Assembly: GCA_956465555.1 (NCBI GenBank)
Contig: OY101117.1
Span: 1,240,001 to 1,304,000, forward strand
Direction of reading: 5' to 3'
Length of the DNA stretch: 64,000 bases
Source: Nitzschia sp. pyKryTriq1
Lineage: Eukaryota; Bacillariophyta; Bacillariophyceae; Bacillariales; Bacillariaceae
Shown: positions 21,636-30,012 of the stretch, piece after piece
Position numbering within the stretch: the first letter of the stretch is position 1
Layout: the number at the start of each line of letters is the position of its first letter
Notes under the pieces: model-generated
Told to the model about the DNA's origin: nothing
What the model saw: the letters and a program-made list of their open reading frames with translations, nothing else
The model's database searches: none
Made by a program: the position numbers and the translations under genes

Positions 21636-23549
21636 TCAGACTGGAACTAAATTTCCACTCATGAAGAGCTGGCATTTGATTGGCGCAGCGTTGTCGGGGG
21701 CGACAGGTGCGCTAGCACCGTAGATCGCTGTTCGAATAACGTTTGAATGGCAAACAACGGCAATCGTTTGTTCCCTGCGGTCCATGTATAGCCATTGAAA
21801 TGCCCTTTGGATTCTTCTGGTGGCTGGCTCATTCCCCGGCGGTTGAGGCCACTTCTTTGGTTGGAGTGATTTGTAGTCCACAAAGGCATCCTCTTTCCTG
21901 CCCTTGATGTCACTGTCAAGATCCACCAAGACATCGTCCATTGGTTTTGGTGAATTTTCGGGGCCTTCACGTCCAGCATCGGCGAGATCATAGTTTACAA
22001 TAATTTTGTGTTCTGGGAAACCCAAAAGTGCCGTATGCAGCGCCCGCTTGAGGGGCGATGTCACAACCAGTTGAATGTTTTCTAAATGCTCGCCTGCAAG
22101 TAACTTCAACAGATCCTTTGACTGCTGAATCCCATGTTCGGTCAATCCACAATCCTTTAATTCTGGGTTGGTGGATCTGTCCTTACCTTCGAAAACCTCA
22201 GCTTCCGATTGAGCATTGCGTATCAGGTAGATCATCTTGTACGGCGAAACAGGATCTGGTTGAGGAGGCCATGGTCGTCGACTTTGGACCTCCCAGAATT
22301 CTTTGCTCCCTGTGCGCCCCAAACCTGCGGTGGGATTGGGGACCCATCCATGTTTGATCATTTGTTGACAAATGGCGGCTAGGTTGCGGCAATCATCTAG
22401 CCCCGAATCGCTGCTGGAGTCTGGCGGCAGCCCCATTTCGTTGAGCATATCTGCAATTCCCCGAACCCCCTTTTTGTGGTGCATATTTTCAAATGGCCAC
22501 TTGACATTGATCCAGGATTGAAACGCAGCAGGCACCTCTTGCTTTTGATGTTCCAGTTGATTTGGCAGACAAACTTTCAAATCCCAATCCCCACATATTG
22601 TATAGAGAAATGTTTTCTTGGACTCATCCTTCTGATCCCCTTGTTTCAACGCTTCTGATAAACTAATCAAATTGTGGTCGTTTAGCCATTCCTTATGCAT
22701 CTCCAGGGCATCTACCAAACTCATTCCTCCATCGACCTGATCCTGAGTGATACCAGTGAGCTCAATACAGTAGTCTGATAATATTGGGTGAACATCTGGT
22801 CGGACATGGCAATGAAATTTTCCCTCGATTTCTCCAGTTTCTGCATTCACGAGCATTGCTGGAAATTCGATGATTTCTTGCGGTTTGGGTGGCGGTCCAT
22901 TGTTACACGTTGCCATGAAATCCAAAACGCAGAGATACTCCACCAGCCTCGTTGGCTCTTTCTTAATTAGTTTTCTACTGGAGCGTCTCTTCTTGAGCTT
23001 GCCATTCTTTGACGGGGATTTTGGCGTCCTTGGAGAAATGAGGGGCATGGACGGTAGGGATGCGCGAGTAGAGTTTGGTGTTCTGGGAGACGCTAGTGGC
23101 CGAGGAGATTTGGCACTAGCAGATGTGAGTCGTCGAGGAGATTTACCGGTTGGAGAAACTACCCTCCCGGGAGATTTAGGAGACTTGGGGGACGGAGGAG
23201 CTTCCGTAGCTGAATTCAAATTCGATTTAATAGCACTCCGCTTCTTCTGTCGCTTCGCCATGTCATCCTCCACTTGTTTCATGATGGCACGATAGGTGAT
23301 ACCAGATTCTGGAGGCAATGAATCTAGAAAAGCTCGAGCTTTCCGTTTAAATTCCTTTTGCACCTTGAGTTCTTCCTCGGTGGGGTCCCGCCCAATAACT
23401 GGAGCCGGAGCCTGGTCAATCAAATCATGGAGGTCGTCTTTTAAATGGGTGTCCAATCGATCGAGCACCATGTACAGTGCCTTTCGGACCTTTTGATCAG
23501 GGGTTTCCGGTTGTGCTAACGGCGCCTGAGGCACCTTTATAGGAGGCAT
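21636..23549 (-). CDS. ERI1-like DEDDh exonuclease domain fused to phosphoglycerate-mutase domain; both active sites substituted
   Basis: Start set at the first in-frame ATG (MPPIKVPQAP); 637 residues. Residues 110-200 are a basic Ser-Pro/Lys-rich linker with many SPK/SPR sites. An ERI1/3'hExo-like domain follows from about 205: LDFMATCN, where the family has DFEATC, so the metal-binding Glu is Met (M212); ICGDWDLKVCLP keeps its Asp; SSDSGLDDCRN, where the family has His before SG(I/L)DD, has Asp (D381). From about 436 comes a histidine-phosphatase domain: YLIRNAQSE in place of RHG(E)S, so the catalytic His is Asn (N445), while the second His in VCHSNVIR and the Arg in TSPLKRA remain. ERI1 proteins trim histone mRNA, 5.8S rRNA and small RNAs; here RNA binding without cleavage is the likelier inference. 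Confidence 0.8.
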   Translation of the reverse strand: MPPIKVPQAPLAQPETPDQKVRKALYMVLDRLDTHLKDDLHDLIDQAPAPVIGRDPTEEELKVQKEFKRKARAFLDSLPPESGITYRAIMKQVEDDMAKRQKKRSAIKSNLNSATEAPPSPKSPKSPGRVVSPTGKSPRRLTSASAKSPRPLASPRTPNSTRASLPSMPLISPRTPKSPSKNGKLKKRRSSRKLIKKEPTRLVEYLCVLDFMATCNNGPPPKPQEIIEFPAMLVNAETGEIEGKFHCHVRPDVHPILSDYCIELTGITQDQVDGGMSLVDALEMHKEWLNDHNLISLSEALKQGDQKDESKKTFLYTICGDWDLKVCLPNQLEHQKQEVPAAFQSWINVKWPFENMHHKKGVRGIADMLNEMGLPPDSSSDSGLDDCRNLAAICQQMIKHGWVPNPTAGLGRTGSKEFWEVQSRRPWPPQPDPVSPYKMIYLIRNAQSEAEVFEGKDRSTNPELKDCGLTEHGIQQSKDLLKLLAGEHLENIQLVVTSPLKRALHTALLGFPEHKIIVNYDLADAGREGPENSPKPMDDVLVDLDSDIKGRKEDAFVDYKSLQPKKWPQPPGNEPATRRIQRAFQWLYMDRREQTIAVVCHSNVIRTAIYGASAPVAPDNAAPIKCQLFMSGNLVPV

Positions 23550-27225: not shown

Positions 27226-30012
27226 ATGACCGGGCAAACCTGTTCCAGAAAACGTCAAAACGACACATGGAATTCCAGTCTAGAATCATCTCACATTAAG
27301 ATTTCCCCGCTTTGGACTGCTTCAGTGTCTCTGTTACCGTCATACATAGGTTCCATTTCTGCTGATGTCTTGGTCATGCTGGCGCTTGCTATGGGCGTTG
27401 TATCTTCGGGTTTCTGGCTCCGGAAAAGGCGACGAAGAACACCCAAGTTGAAAGATGAAGATAACGCCAAAGCGTTTCATTCCGTGTATACATCTACCAG
27501 CGCCAACACAGGAGATGCTAGAAAACGCAAAGAAGAATTCGTGTGTCGAAATACCGAGATATATGGCTACAGAGGTACACCTGGGGGATACATTGACGAA
27601 TGGAGACCCGTGGAGCTACCGGGGCTGCAACGTCCACTAGAATCATCATCCAAGGATACCACAGAATCGGAAATTTATCTAGATTATGCAGGGGCAGCGC
27701 TGCCGGCGAAAACTCAGCTGGTGGCGGCATTTCAAGATCTTTCATCACAAAGGGTCCTTGCAAATCCTCACTCGACAGGACCCGCTGCCTCTAGAAGTTT
27801 AGTACGGATTCAACAGGCCAAACAAAGGGTCCTGCGGCATCTGGATGCCACTCCGGGACGATTTGCCTCATTGGAATGCCCCCCGTCTTTTGCCTCTCCA
27901 GCCCAGAAACATTCTGGATATGAAATGGTCTTCACATCGGGAACGACAGAAGGCCTACGGCTTATCGCAGAACGCTTTCCCTGGAGAGCAGCGTGTTCCC
28001 ACTGTCGACGACAATCCGTTTTTTTGTATGCACATAATTCGCACACTTCGGTTCTGGGGATGCGAAACTTGGCTTTGAAAGAAGGAGGTCGATTTGTGTG
28101 CCGAACATCACATGAAATCAGTTGCATGGACTCTGATGGCTTTGATAGCCTCTTCCAGCCATCTCTGGACCATTGTACCCATTGCAGGATGGAAGACTAT
28201 CCAAATCTACTGGCAATTCCCGCCGAGTGCAATTTTGGAGGTACCCGGCTGGACATACAGGCAGTAACAGCAACAACAAGAAATGCTAAATCCTCTTGGT
28301 TTAGCCTTGTGGATATTGCGAAGGCGGCTAGCACTGGTCCCGTCTCACTCAAGCAAACAGGCACAGATTTTGCCGTTTTGAGCTTTTACAAACTGTTTGG
28401 CGAGCCCACTGGACTCGGTGCGTTGCTGGTAAAGCAGTCCGTGACTCACTTACTACAAGGTCGTGGACACTACCAGGGAGGAGGTTCTGTCAATATCATA
28501 CTACCCAACCAAAATGTTTGCGTCCCTCGATCCGGGGGACTGTCTGGTCTGGTCCATGGTTCTGCTCACTTTCGAGGTATTCAGACGCTGGTTCACGGAT
28601 TTGATGAATTGGACAGACGTGGTGGTATGCACCGAATACACGAGCATGCAACATGTCTCGCTAGGGAACTTTCACGGCGCCTCGAAGCACTATGTCATGG
28701 CAACGGTCAGCGGGCGATTGTATTGTCGGGAGCCTGGGCTGATCCCACACTTCGTGACGCGGCAGGGCCGACAATGACTTTCAACGTGATACGAGATGAT
28801 GGTTCTTTTGTGGGGTATAATGAGGTATCCAAGTTGGCATCTTTACATCATCCGCCGATACAATTTCGTACCGGGTGCTTCTGCAATCCCGGTGCCTGCC
28901 AAGAAGCATTGAAACTGAGCGACGCACAAGCGCTCGAGAACTTTGAAACGGGTGGTCATGTCTGCGGTGACCATATCGATCTTGTGGACGGAAGACCAAC
29001 CGGAGCAATCAGAATCAGTTTCGGCAAAGATAGTATCTGGGAAGATATGGATATCTTTGTCACCTTCCTCCAAAAGACTTTCGTCAATGATACCCACTCT
29101 GACTCATCGGCGTCGGTGAACGTATCCGGTCCTACCCGAGTAGAAATTGCCGAGTTATTTATATTTCCCATCAAGAGTTGCGCTGCACAGAGAGTAAAAC
29201 GCTGGAGAATCGAAATGCCCAGCGGAAAATTGCAACACGACCGAGAGTTCGCTTTGGTAGACACCTCTGGTACTGCCATTCGGCTGCAGACCTGCCCCAT
29301 GATGACAACCATTGAACCATCGATTGATCTGGAAACACAGACAATGACGATTTCGGCGTCAGGAATGCAAGATCTTGTGGTCCAGCTTACTGGTGGATCC
29401 CAATACTACCACAACGGCGAAAATAGTATCAACGTTTGTGGAAGCAAGTGTGGGGGTAGACTTTGGGGGGACTTCGAGGTGTCGGAATGGTTCAGTTCCT
29501 ATTTGGGCGTTCAGTGCTGGCTAGCACGTTTCGATAGTGACGGTAGCATTCAGCTGCCCACACAACGACGAAGATCAGATGCTGCGACCATCCCGCGTGC
29601 TGGATTCGCCAACGAACAAGCGCTCCTGCTTATATCTCAAAATGCGGTCTCATTATTGAATGAAGTCCTGAAAGAACAAAATCAACGACCAGTAGGCTCT
29701 CGCCACTTTCGGCCAAATATGGTAGTACGAGGAATCGATTCGTCCGATCATCATATTGAGGATGACTGGAAGGTGCTGACCCTCACGAGGAATGGATTGG
29801 CGTTGAACACGAAAGGAAGCTGTGCACGGTGTGCTATGGTTGATTTCGATCCATATAGTGGCAAGAAAGGCAAGACCCTGCGAGCGCTGGCACGATATCG
29901 AAGGCGAAAAGGTCAGATTACCTTTGGCGTCTTCCTCCAAGCTATGGAAGGTCGTGGCAGAGATCGAGATGATAGTTGGATCGAAGAAGGAGACGAGGTA
30001 TTATGCCGCTAA
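27226..30012 (+). CDS. Molybdenum cofactor sulfurase with N-terminal membrane anchor
   Basis: Transfers sulfur from cysteine to the molybdenum cofactor of xanthine dehydrogenase and aldehyde oxidase. Start set at the first ATG (MTGQTCSRKRQ); 928 residues, single exon. Class V aminotransferase-type domain: YLDYAGAALP, NPHSTGPAAS, TSGTTEGL, the PLP Lys389 in SFYKLFGEPTGLGALL, and the sulfur-carrying Cys region FRTGCFCNPGAC (C551/C553). The C-terminal MOSC part runs from about 640 (IAELFIFPIKSCAAQRV) and holds the Cys pair GSCARCAMVD. Unusual is a hydrophobic stretch at about 28-68 followed by WLRKRRRR, which suggests a membrane anchor before the enzyme. Its stop lies 19 bp from that of the opposing gene. 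Confidence 0.93.
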   Translation: MTGQTCSRKRQNDTWNSSLESSHIKISPLWTASVSLLPSYIGSISADVLVMLALAMGVVSSGFWLRKRRRRTPKLKDEDNAKAFHSVYTSTSANTGDARKRKEEFVCRNTEIYGYRGTPGGYIDEWRPVELPGLQRPLESSSKDTTESEIYLDYAGAALPAKTQLVAAFQDLSSQRVLANPHSTGPAASRSLVRIQQAKQRVLRHLDATPGRFASLECPPSFASPAQKHSGYEMVFTSGTTEGLRLIAERFPWRAACSHCRRQSVFLYAHNSHTSVLGMRNLALKEGGRFVCRTSHEISCMDSDGFDSLFQPSLDHCTHCRMEDYPNLLAIPAECNFGGTRLDIQAVTATTRNAKSSWFSLVDIAKAASTGPVSLKQTGTDFAVLSFYKLFGEPTGLGALLVKQSVTHLLQGRGHYQGGGSVNIILPNQNVCVPRSGGLSGLVHGSAHFRGIQTLVHGFDELDRRGGMHRIHEHATCLARELSRRLEALCHGNGQRAIVLSGAWADPTLRDAAGPTMTFNVIRDDGSFVGYNEVSKLASLHHPPIQFRTGCFCNPGACQEALKLSDAQALENFETGGHVCGDHIDLVDGRPTGAIRISFGKDSIWEDMDIFVTFLQKTFVNDTHSDSSASVNVSGPTRVEIAELFIFPIKSCAAQRVKRWRIEMPSGKLQHDREFALVDTSGTAIRLQTCPMMTTIEPSIDLETQTMTISASGMQDLVVQLTGGSQYYHNGENSINVCGSKCGGRLWGDFEVSEWFSSYLGVQCWLARFDSDGSIQLPTQRRRSDAATIPRAGFANEQALLLISQNAVSLLNEVLKEQNQRPVGSRHFRPNMVVRGIDSSDHHIEDDWKVLTLTRNGLALNTKGSCARCAMVDFDPYSGKKGKTLRALARYRRRKGQITFGVFLQAMEGRGRDRDDSWIEEGDEVLCR

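Follow-up and report, generated by a model that had tools for sequence, protein, structure and literature searches.

A probable two-domain pseudoenzyme that joins an ERI1-type exonuclease to a histidine-phosphatase domain in a diatom

Can a protein that joins two unrelated enzyme domains still act as an enzyme when key residues are gone from both? This question is raised by a gene in a 64,000-nucleotide stretch of diatom DNA, hereafter called the window, which lies on contig 3 of the 40.65-Mb source genome. The 637-amino-acid protein is encoded by a single ATG-to-stop frame (positions 21636 to 23549 of the window, minus strand, stop codon included). A preliminary description had recognized an ERI1-like exonuclease and a phosphoglycerate-mutase-type domain fused in this frame, and Pfam matches to RNase_T and His_Phos_1 bore it out. 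With catalytic residues missing from both partners, the protein would make a case for binding outlasting catalysis. A profile search of the source genome returned eight silicon-transporter matches, all above the cut-off (best E value, 6.9e-266); among 14 control genomes, a single one matched, below the cut-off. These matches support the assignment of the genome to a diatom.

The ERI1/ERI2/ERI3-type DEDDh exonuclease domain occupies residues 199 to 408 (22326 to 22955, minus strand). RNase_T matched residues 209 to 393 (E value, 2.3e-17) with 64.5 bits against a gathering score of 24, and the closest solved structures by sequence were human ERI2, ERI3, and ERI1, with E values of 3e-37 to 1.5e-30. 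By score and by nearest solved relatives, the domain is a DEDDh homologue of the ERI1 clade. An AlphaFold2 model built with 21 relatives, which is unreliable over the linker and the mutase part, reached block pLDDT values of 88 to 98 across residues 201 to 400. Foldseek placed ERI3, ERI2, and ERI1 at the top, followed by CRN-4. The RNaseH domain of ESRP1, which is not known to be active as a nuclease, came next (RNaseH-qRRM1 structure 7wrn; rank 18; E value, 1.1e-10; 19% identity). The fusion protein shares the exonuclease fold, 35 to 41% sequence identity, and the Asp residues with human ERI3, ERI2, and ERI1 (3'hExo), but differs from them by a Glu-to-Met change, a His-to-Asp change, and the phosphatase-type domain at its C terminus.

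The catalytic residues of 3'hExo are D134, E136, D234, H293, and D298, as given in the available part of PMC10388802, and they align with D210, M212, D323, D381, and D386 of the fusion protein. The aspartates of ExoI (D210; 22920 to 22922), ExoII (D323; 22581 to 22583), and ExoIII (D386; 22392 to 22394) were kept. M212 (22914 to 22916) stands at the ExoI Glu, E136 of human ERI1, and D381 (22407 to 22409) stands at the ExoIII His, H293 of human ERI1, all on the minus strand. Two of the five residues of an active ERI1-clade enzyme (D, E, D, D, and H) are therefore replaced. Direct reading of the codons gave GAT for D210, TTC for F211, ATG for M212, and GAT for D381, which precedes SGLDD. Both the ExoI Glu and the ExoIII His take part in two-metal hydrolysis in the DEDDh family. 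When DFE was mutated to AFA in bacterial KapD, activity fell more than 10-fold, according to the accessible portion of PMC11736430; that mutant lacks both the Asp and the Glu, whereas the fusion protein retains D210.

The two replaced residues were compared with those of 21 relatives, six from a viral collection and 15 from bacteria (22 loci were fetched, and L045 was left out because it encodes the same protein as L044). All 21 carry Glu at position 212 and His at position 381. The search patterns admitted Glu or Met at 212, so that Met was not excluded and other residues were possibly thinned; the His column was part of no search pattern. Human ERI1 to ERI3 read Glu in three of three rows and His in two of three, with Ala at the His position of the ERI2 chain, presumably an engineered crystal construct. 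Searches covered the source diatom genome and collections of prokaryotic, viral, phage, and plasmid origin. Single-protein patterns located close relatives neither in viral_contigs nor in genome_contigs (three candidate stretches, no relative), and patterns for the mutase pair gave 62 candidate stretches and zero relatives in viral_contigs. KapD was the best NCBIfam match of the fusion protein, far under its cut-off (43.1 versus 169 bits), and the bacterial KapD-like relative L051 is 45% identical to it. All five catalytic residues, two of which are replaced in the fusion protein, are kept in 15 of 15 KapD-like bacterial relatives; a fused mutase was not noticed by eye in the frames read.

Seventeen of the 21 exonuclease columns that are invariant among the 21 relatives are kept, and the four broken ones are E212M, F278L, G378S, and H381D. 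A preferential loss of catalytic residues was considered and rejected, as at least two catalytic residues among four broken columns are expected with P = 0.23. In a 25-row tree, which leaves the placement of the protein within the ERI1 clade unresolved, its end branch measured 1.11, shorter than those of human ERI1 (1.42), ERI2 (1.76), and ERI3 (1.21) and longer than all 15 bacterial ones (largest, 1.03), these lengths being dependent on sampling. The earlier claim that the rest of the domain is well preserved is thus borne out by 17 of the 21 invariant columns but qualified by losses that show no statistical concentration on catalytic residues and by an end branch that, though shorter than the human ones, is longer than that of any bacterial row.

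One acid lost (E212) and one gained (D381) in the same active site, with D210, D323, and D386 kept, could also describe an exonuclease that is altered rather than dead. D381 would then supply the carboxylate lost at E212 and allow slow or differently metal-dependent cleavage, and an active-site switch has been proposed for Maelstrom, a DEDDh descendant, in the part of PMC2628886 available. However, the usual base would then be missing as well, and the adjacent G378, invariant in 21 of 21 relatives, was also lost. We regard this relocation of the ligand as distinctly unlikely.

The histidine-phosphatase branch 1 domain spans residues 438 to 637 (21639 to 22238, minus strand). His_Phos_1 matched in two stretches, the better being residues 440 to 509, with a whole-protein E value of 1.7e-12 and 47.9 bits against a gathering score of 21.7, which identifies the domain as a branch 1 homologue. 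Folding it from the single sequence gave a mean pLDDT of 36.6 and no usable model, and residues were assigned by alignment with L009, a stand-alone paralogue of 259 amino acids on contig 1 that is 43 to 44% identical to the fused mutase domain. At the position of the RHG nucleophile motif, the protein reads R444-N445-A446 (22212 to 22220, minus strand; codons CGC, AAT, and GCT), so the nucleophile His of the RH(G/A) motif of active enzymes is absent. A histidine phosphatase without this residue cannot form the phosphoenzyme. R502 of SPLKRA (22044 to 22046) and H601 of CHSN (21747 to 21749), which we take to be the phosphate-pocket Arg and the second catalytic His, were kept, and D524 (21978 to 21980) aligns with the Glu of LREVG in L009, assumed here to be the catalytic general acid; all three lie on the minus strand. 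Reading of the codons upheld M212, D381, and N445 as first described, and residues required for the known chemistry are missing from both domains (from the exonuclease, the Glu and His that all 21 relatives share; from the phosphatase part, the nucleophile His). The broader statement that both catalytic sites are substituted holds for these three positions but only in part for the sites, as D210, D323, D386, H601, and R502 are intact.

L009 shares the equivalents of R444, R502, and H601, the second of these being the arginine of SPLxRA, but stands alone. Its motifs are RHG, LREVG, and CHYN, which correspond to RNA, LADAG, and CHSN in the fusion protein. Because L009 retains RHG, a loss on the fused lineage is the simpler reading, and the missing nucleophile is probably a derived state. 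We weighed and rejected a reading of RHG to RNA as two meaningful changes; the Gly-to-Ala part carries little weight because another histidine-phosphatase gene of the same genome, L041, reads RHA. The preliminary description had named intact motifs in orthologues as evidence against a pseudoenzyme. Such motifs do occur in distant relatives and in the paralogue L009, where they indicate derived losses and do not refute the reading.

The source genome holds 60 His_Phos_1 matches, the window's own counted. The start motif could be read in 28 others, namely, 21 of 30 loci (the remaining nine do not cover it) and seven further regions, an eighth being left uncounted since it overlaps L027. RH(G/A) was found in 26 of these 28 places, L009 included; the nucleophile His is absent from L027 (contig 16; RCG) and L034 (contig 2; RYG). 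Its loss is uncommon, though not unique, in this genome. The L027 frame contains a second RHG motif further along.

Such losses elsewhere are compatible with a history in which catalysis disappeared by drift and the fusion, having no joint function, survives through the binding of one domain or by drift itself. A precedent is the actinobacterial RNase H-CobC fusion MSMEG_4305, which its authors consider most probably fixed by drift (PMC7466739, in the part available). We judge this account unlikely, as the 637-codon frame is intact with both domains recognizable, and the exonuclease end branch does not exceed those of human ERI1 to ERI3.

At the local base composition, any one frame would remain open over 637 codons with a probability of 3.5e-15. 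The in-frame codon score was the highest of all six frames over the N-terminal region, the exonuclease, and the mutase; in the linker and a short hinge, a different frame scored higher, and the codon score is uninformative for both. Coding signal and intact length argue against a decaying gene. Differences between the fused mutase domain and L009 numbered 96, 71, and 140 at the three codon positions (207 codons), as expected under protein-level constraint in one or both lineages. A recent pseudogene, or a sequence error at the critical codons of what is a single assembly, is in our opinion very improbable, since at least four base changes, or five with RHG as the ancestral mutase motif, are spread over three distinct motifs without breaking the 637-codon frame. 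Glu-to-Met at 212 alone takes at least two base changes and therefore cannot be a one-base error. Elsewhere in the window (27226 to 30012), a frame combines class-V aminotransferase and MOSC domains, an arrangement that we take to resemble molybdenum-cofactor sulfurases.

The part of the protein that precedes the nuclease consists of two segments. Residues 12 to 114 (23208 to 23516, minus strand) form a predicted helical region of no known family, with AlphaFold2 block pLDDT values of 70 to 87 at residues 11 to 110 and 57 at residues 111 to 120; no Pfam family matched the first 200 residues at E values up to 1. ERI1 (3'hExo) has a SAP domain before its nuclease, whereas none was detected here by Pfam at E values up to 1, a search that a divergent SAP domain could escape. 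Residues 106 to 198 (22956 to 23234, minus strand) make up a basic, Ser/Thr-Pro-rich linker that is probably disordered, as pLDDT is below 50 across residues 116 to 187. It contains 23 Lys or Arg and 2 Asp or Glu residues, and its 93 residues hold 11 Ser/Thr-Pro pairs, compared with 5 in the remaining 544. This richness fits proline-directed kinases.

Taken together, the gene probably encodes a two-domain pseudoenzyme that would bind RNA 3' ends without cutting them and use its second domain as a phosphate-pocket scaffold. From the sequence, we infer loss of activity, binding of RNA and phosphate, and regulation of the protein. The ERI1-type domain is predicted to fold and, because three of four metal-site acids remain, probably still binds an RNA 3' end; with both the ExoI Glu and the catalytic His gone, two-metal hydrolysis would no longer run. 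The phosphatase-type domain appears to retain two Arg and one His of its phosphate pocket. Lacking the nucleophile, it would form no phosphohistidine and therefore may hold a phosphorylated ligand or act as a contact surface. Kinases would tune localization or assembly through the basic Ser/Thr-Pro linker that leads from the N-terminal helices to the exonuclease. Since each domain keeps its fold and some of its pocket, binding would be the likeliest surviving function, as in fungal Ssd1 and other inactive nucleases described in the available part of PMC8097288.

Inactive nucleases that bind RNA are an established pattern in that same source. Maelstrom, EXD1, Exuperantia, and Ssd1 have a nuclease fold without catalytic residues and act in RNA binding or regulation, and in the accessible portions of PMC8097288 and PMC2628886, none is described as pairing an ERI1-clade nuclease with a histidine-phosphatase domain. 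MSMEG_4305 and its counterpart Rv2228c likewise join a nuclease of RNase H fold to a histidine-phosphatase-type domain, but their nuclease family differs and both domains are reported as active in the part of PMC7466739 available. NCBIfam PRK07238 matches the mutase part of the diatom protein weakly (19.8 versus 326 bits). Inactive nucleases and inactive phosphatases are each familiar; their combination is unusual. We found no report of an ERI1-type and histidine-phosphatase fusion in one library of open-licence papers, an absence that is weak evidence.

The protein may be the only ERI1-type protein of its genome. RNase_T matched seven places, the window's included; the other six, judged by eye, were PAN2-like, REXO4-like (three), DnaQ-like, and a transposase fusion, none of them ERI1-type. 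Queries with the window protein and with L051 located no second ERI1-type locus in the source genome, where the search runs exon by exon and might overlook a gene with numerous introns. A brown alga reportedly carries an ERI1 homologue, Esi0039_0083 (PMC4513859). In the transposase fusion (L006; contig 8:1708348-1708752), a DEDDh exonuclease domain is joined in frame to a downstream part that resembles, by eye, a piggyBac-type transposase. If one substituted protein does represent the whole ERI1 clade here, the tasks that ERI1 performs in other organisms (histone mRNA decay, 5.8S trimming, and small-RNA control) would have to fall to another nuclease or go undone. Piwi domains were matched at two places in the genome.

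The histone stem-loop is the classical and best-known ligand of ERI1. An SLBP RNA-binding domain was found at L066 (contig 5:996049-996234; E value, 1.5e-18), and none of the 14 controls matched. Of 17 histone-fold places in the source genome, six are followed by a histone-type stem-loop on their 3' side, and the best-known ligand and partner of ERI1 are both present. Because of this, binding without cutting is directly testable. That the diatom protein binds SLBP or the histone stem-loop is speculation. The fuller proposal, that the sole ERI1-type protein occupies the histone mRNA stem-loop, or another ERI1 RNA such as the 5.8S 3' end, in a regulated way and without cutting it, while its nucleophile-less histidine-phosphatase pocket recognizes phosphorylated SLBP or the protein's own linker, would make it a phospho-responsive protective cap; we grant this only a slim chance. 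No report on diatom SLBP and histone mRNA was found in the same open-licence library.

The stem-loops were located solely by reading downstream of histone genes. All six genes (L080, L081, L085, L086, L092, and L093) lie on contig 9 at about 762 to 785 kb and represent, by eye, three gene types, with two each of H3, H2A, and H2B. The element has a 6-bp stem and a TTTT loop, preceded by CAAACAAACC and followed by ACCCTTTT; its stem starts 74 to 113 bases past the stop codon. It was absent within 400 bases of the other 11 histone-fold places, some of which are H3-, H2A-, or H2B-like. A pattern derived from the six had no further occurrence in the genome, and the reversed version, used as a control, gave no match; the H2A/H3 pattern with up to three mismatches gave four places, all among the known six, and one control match. 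Rfam Histone3 produced two matches in the source genome, both below the gathering score (75 of 5,266 candidates scored), and at the same threshold, 9 of 14 control prokaryotes matched. The H2B stem differs from the H2A and H3 stems at two base pairs, with both sides changed in each. At about 762 to 784 kb on contig 9, the histone cluster has the look of a large inverted duplication, with H2B, H2A, and H3 mirrored.
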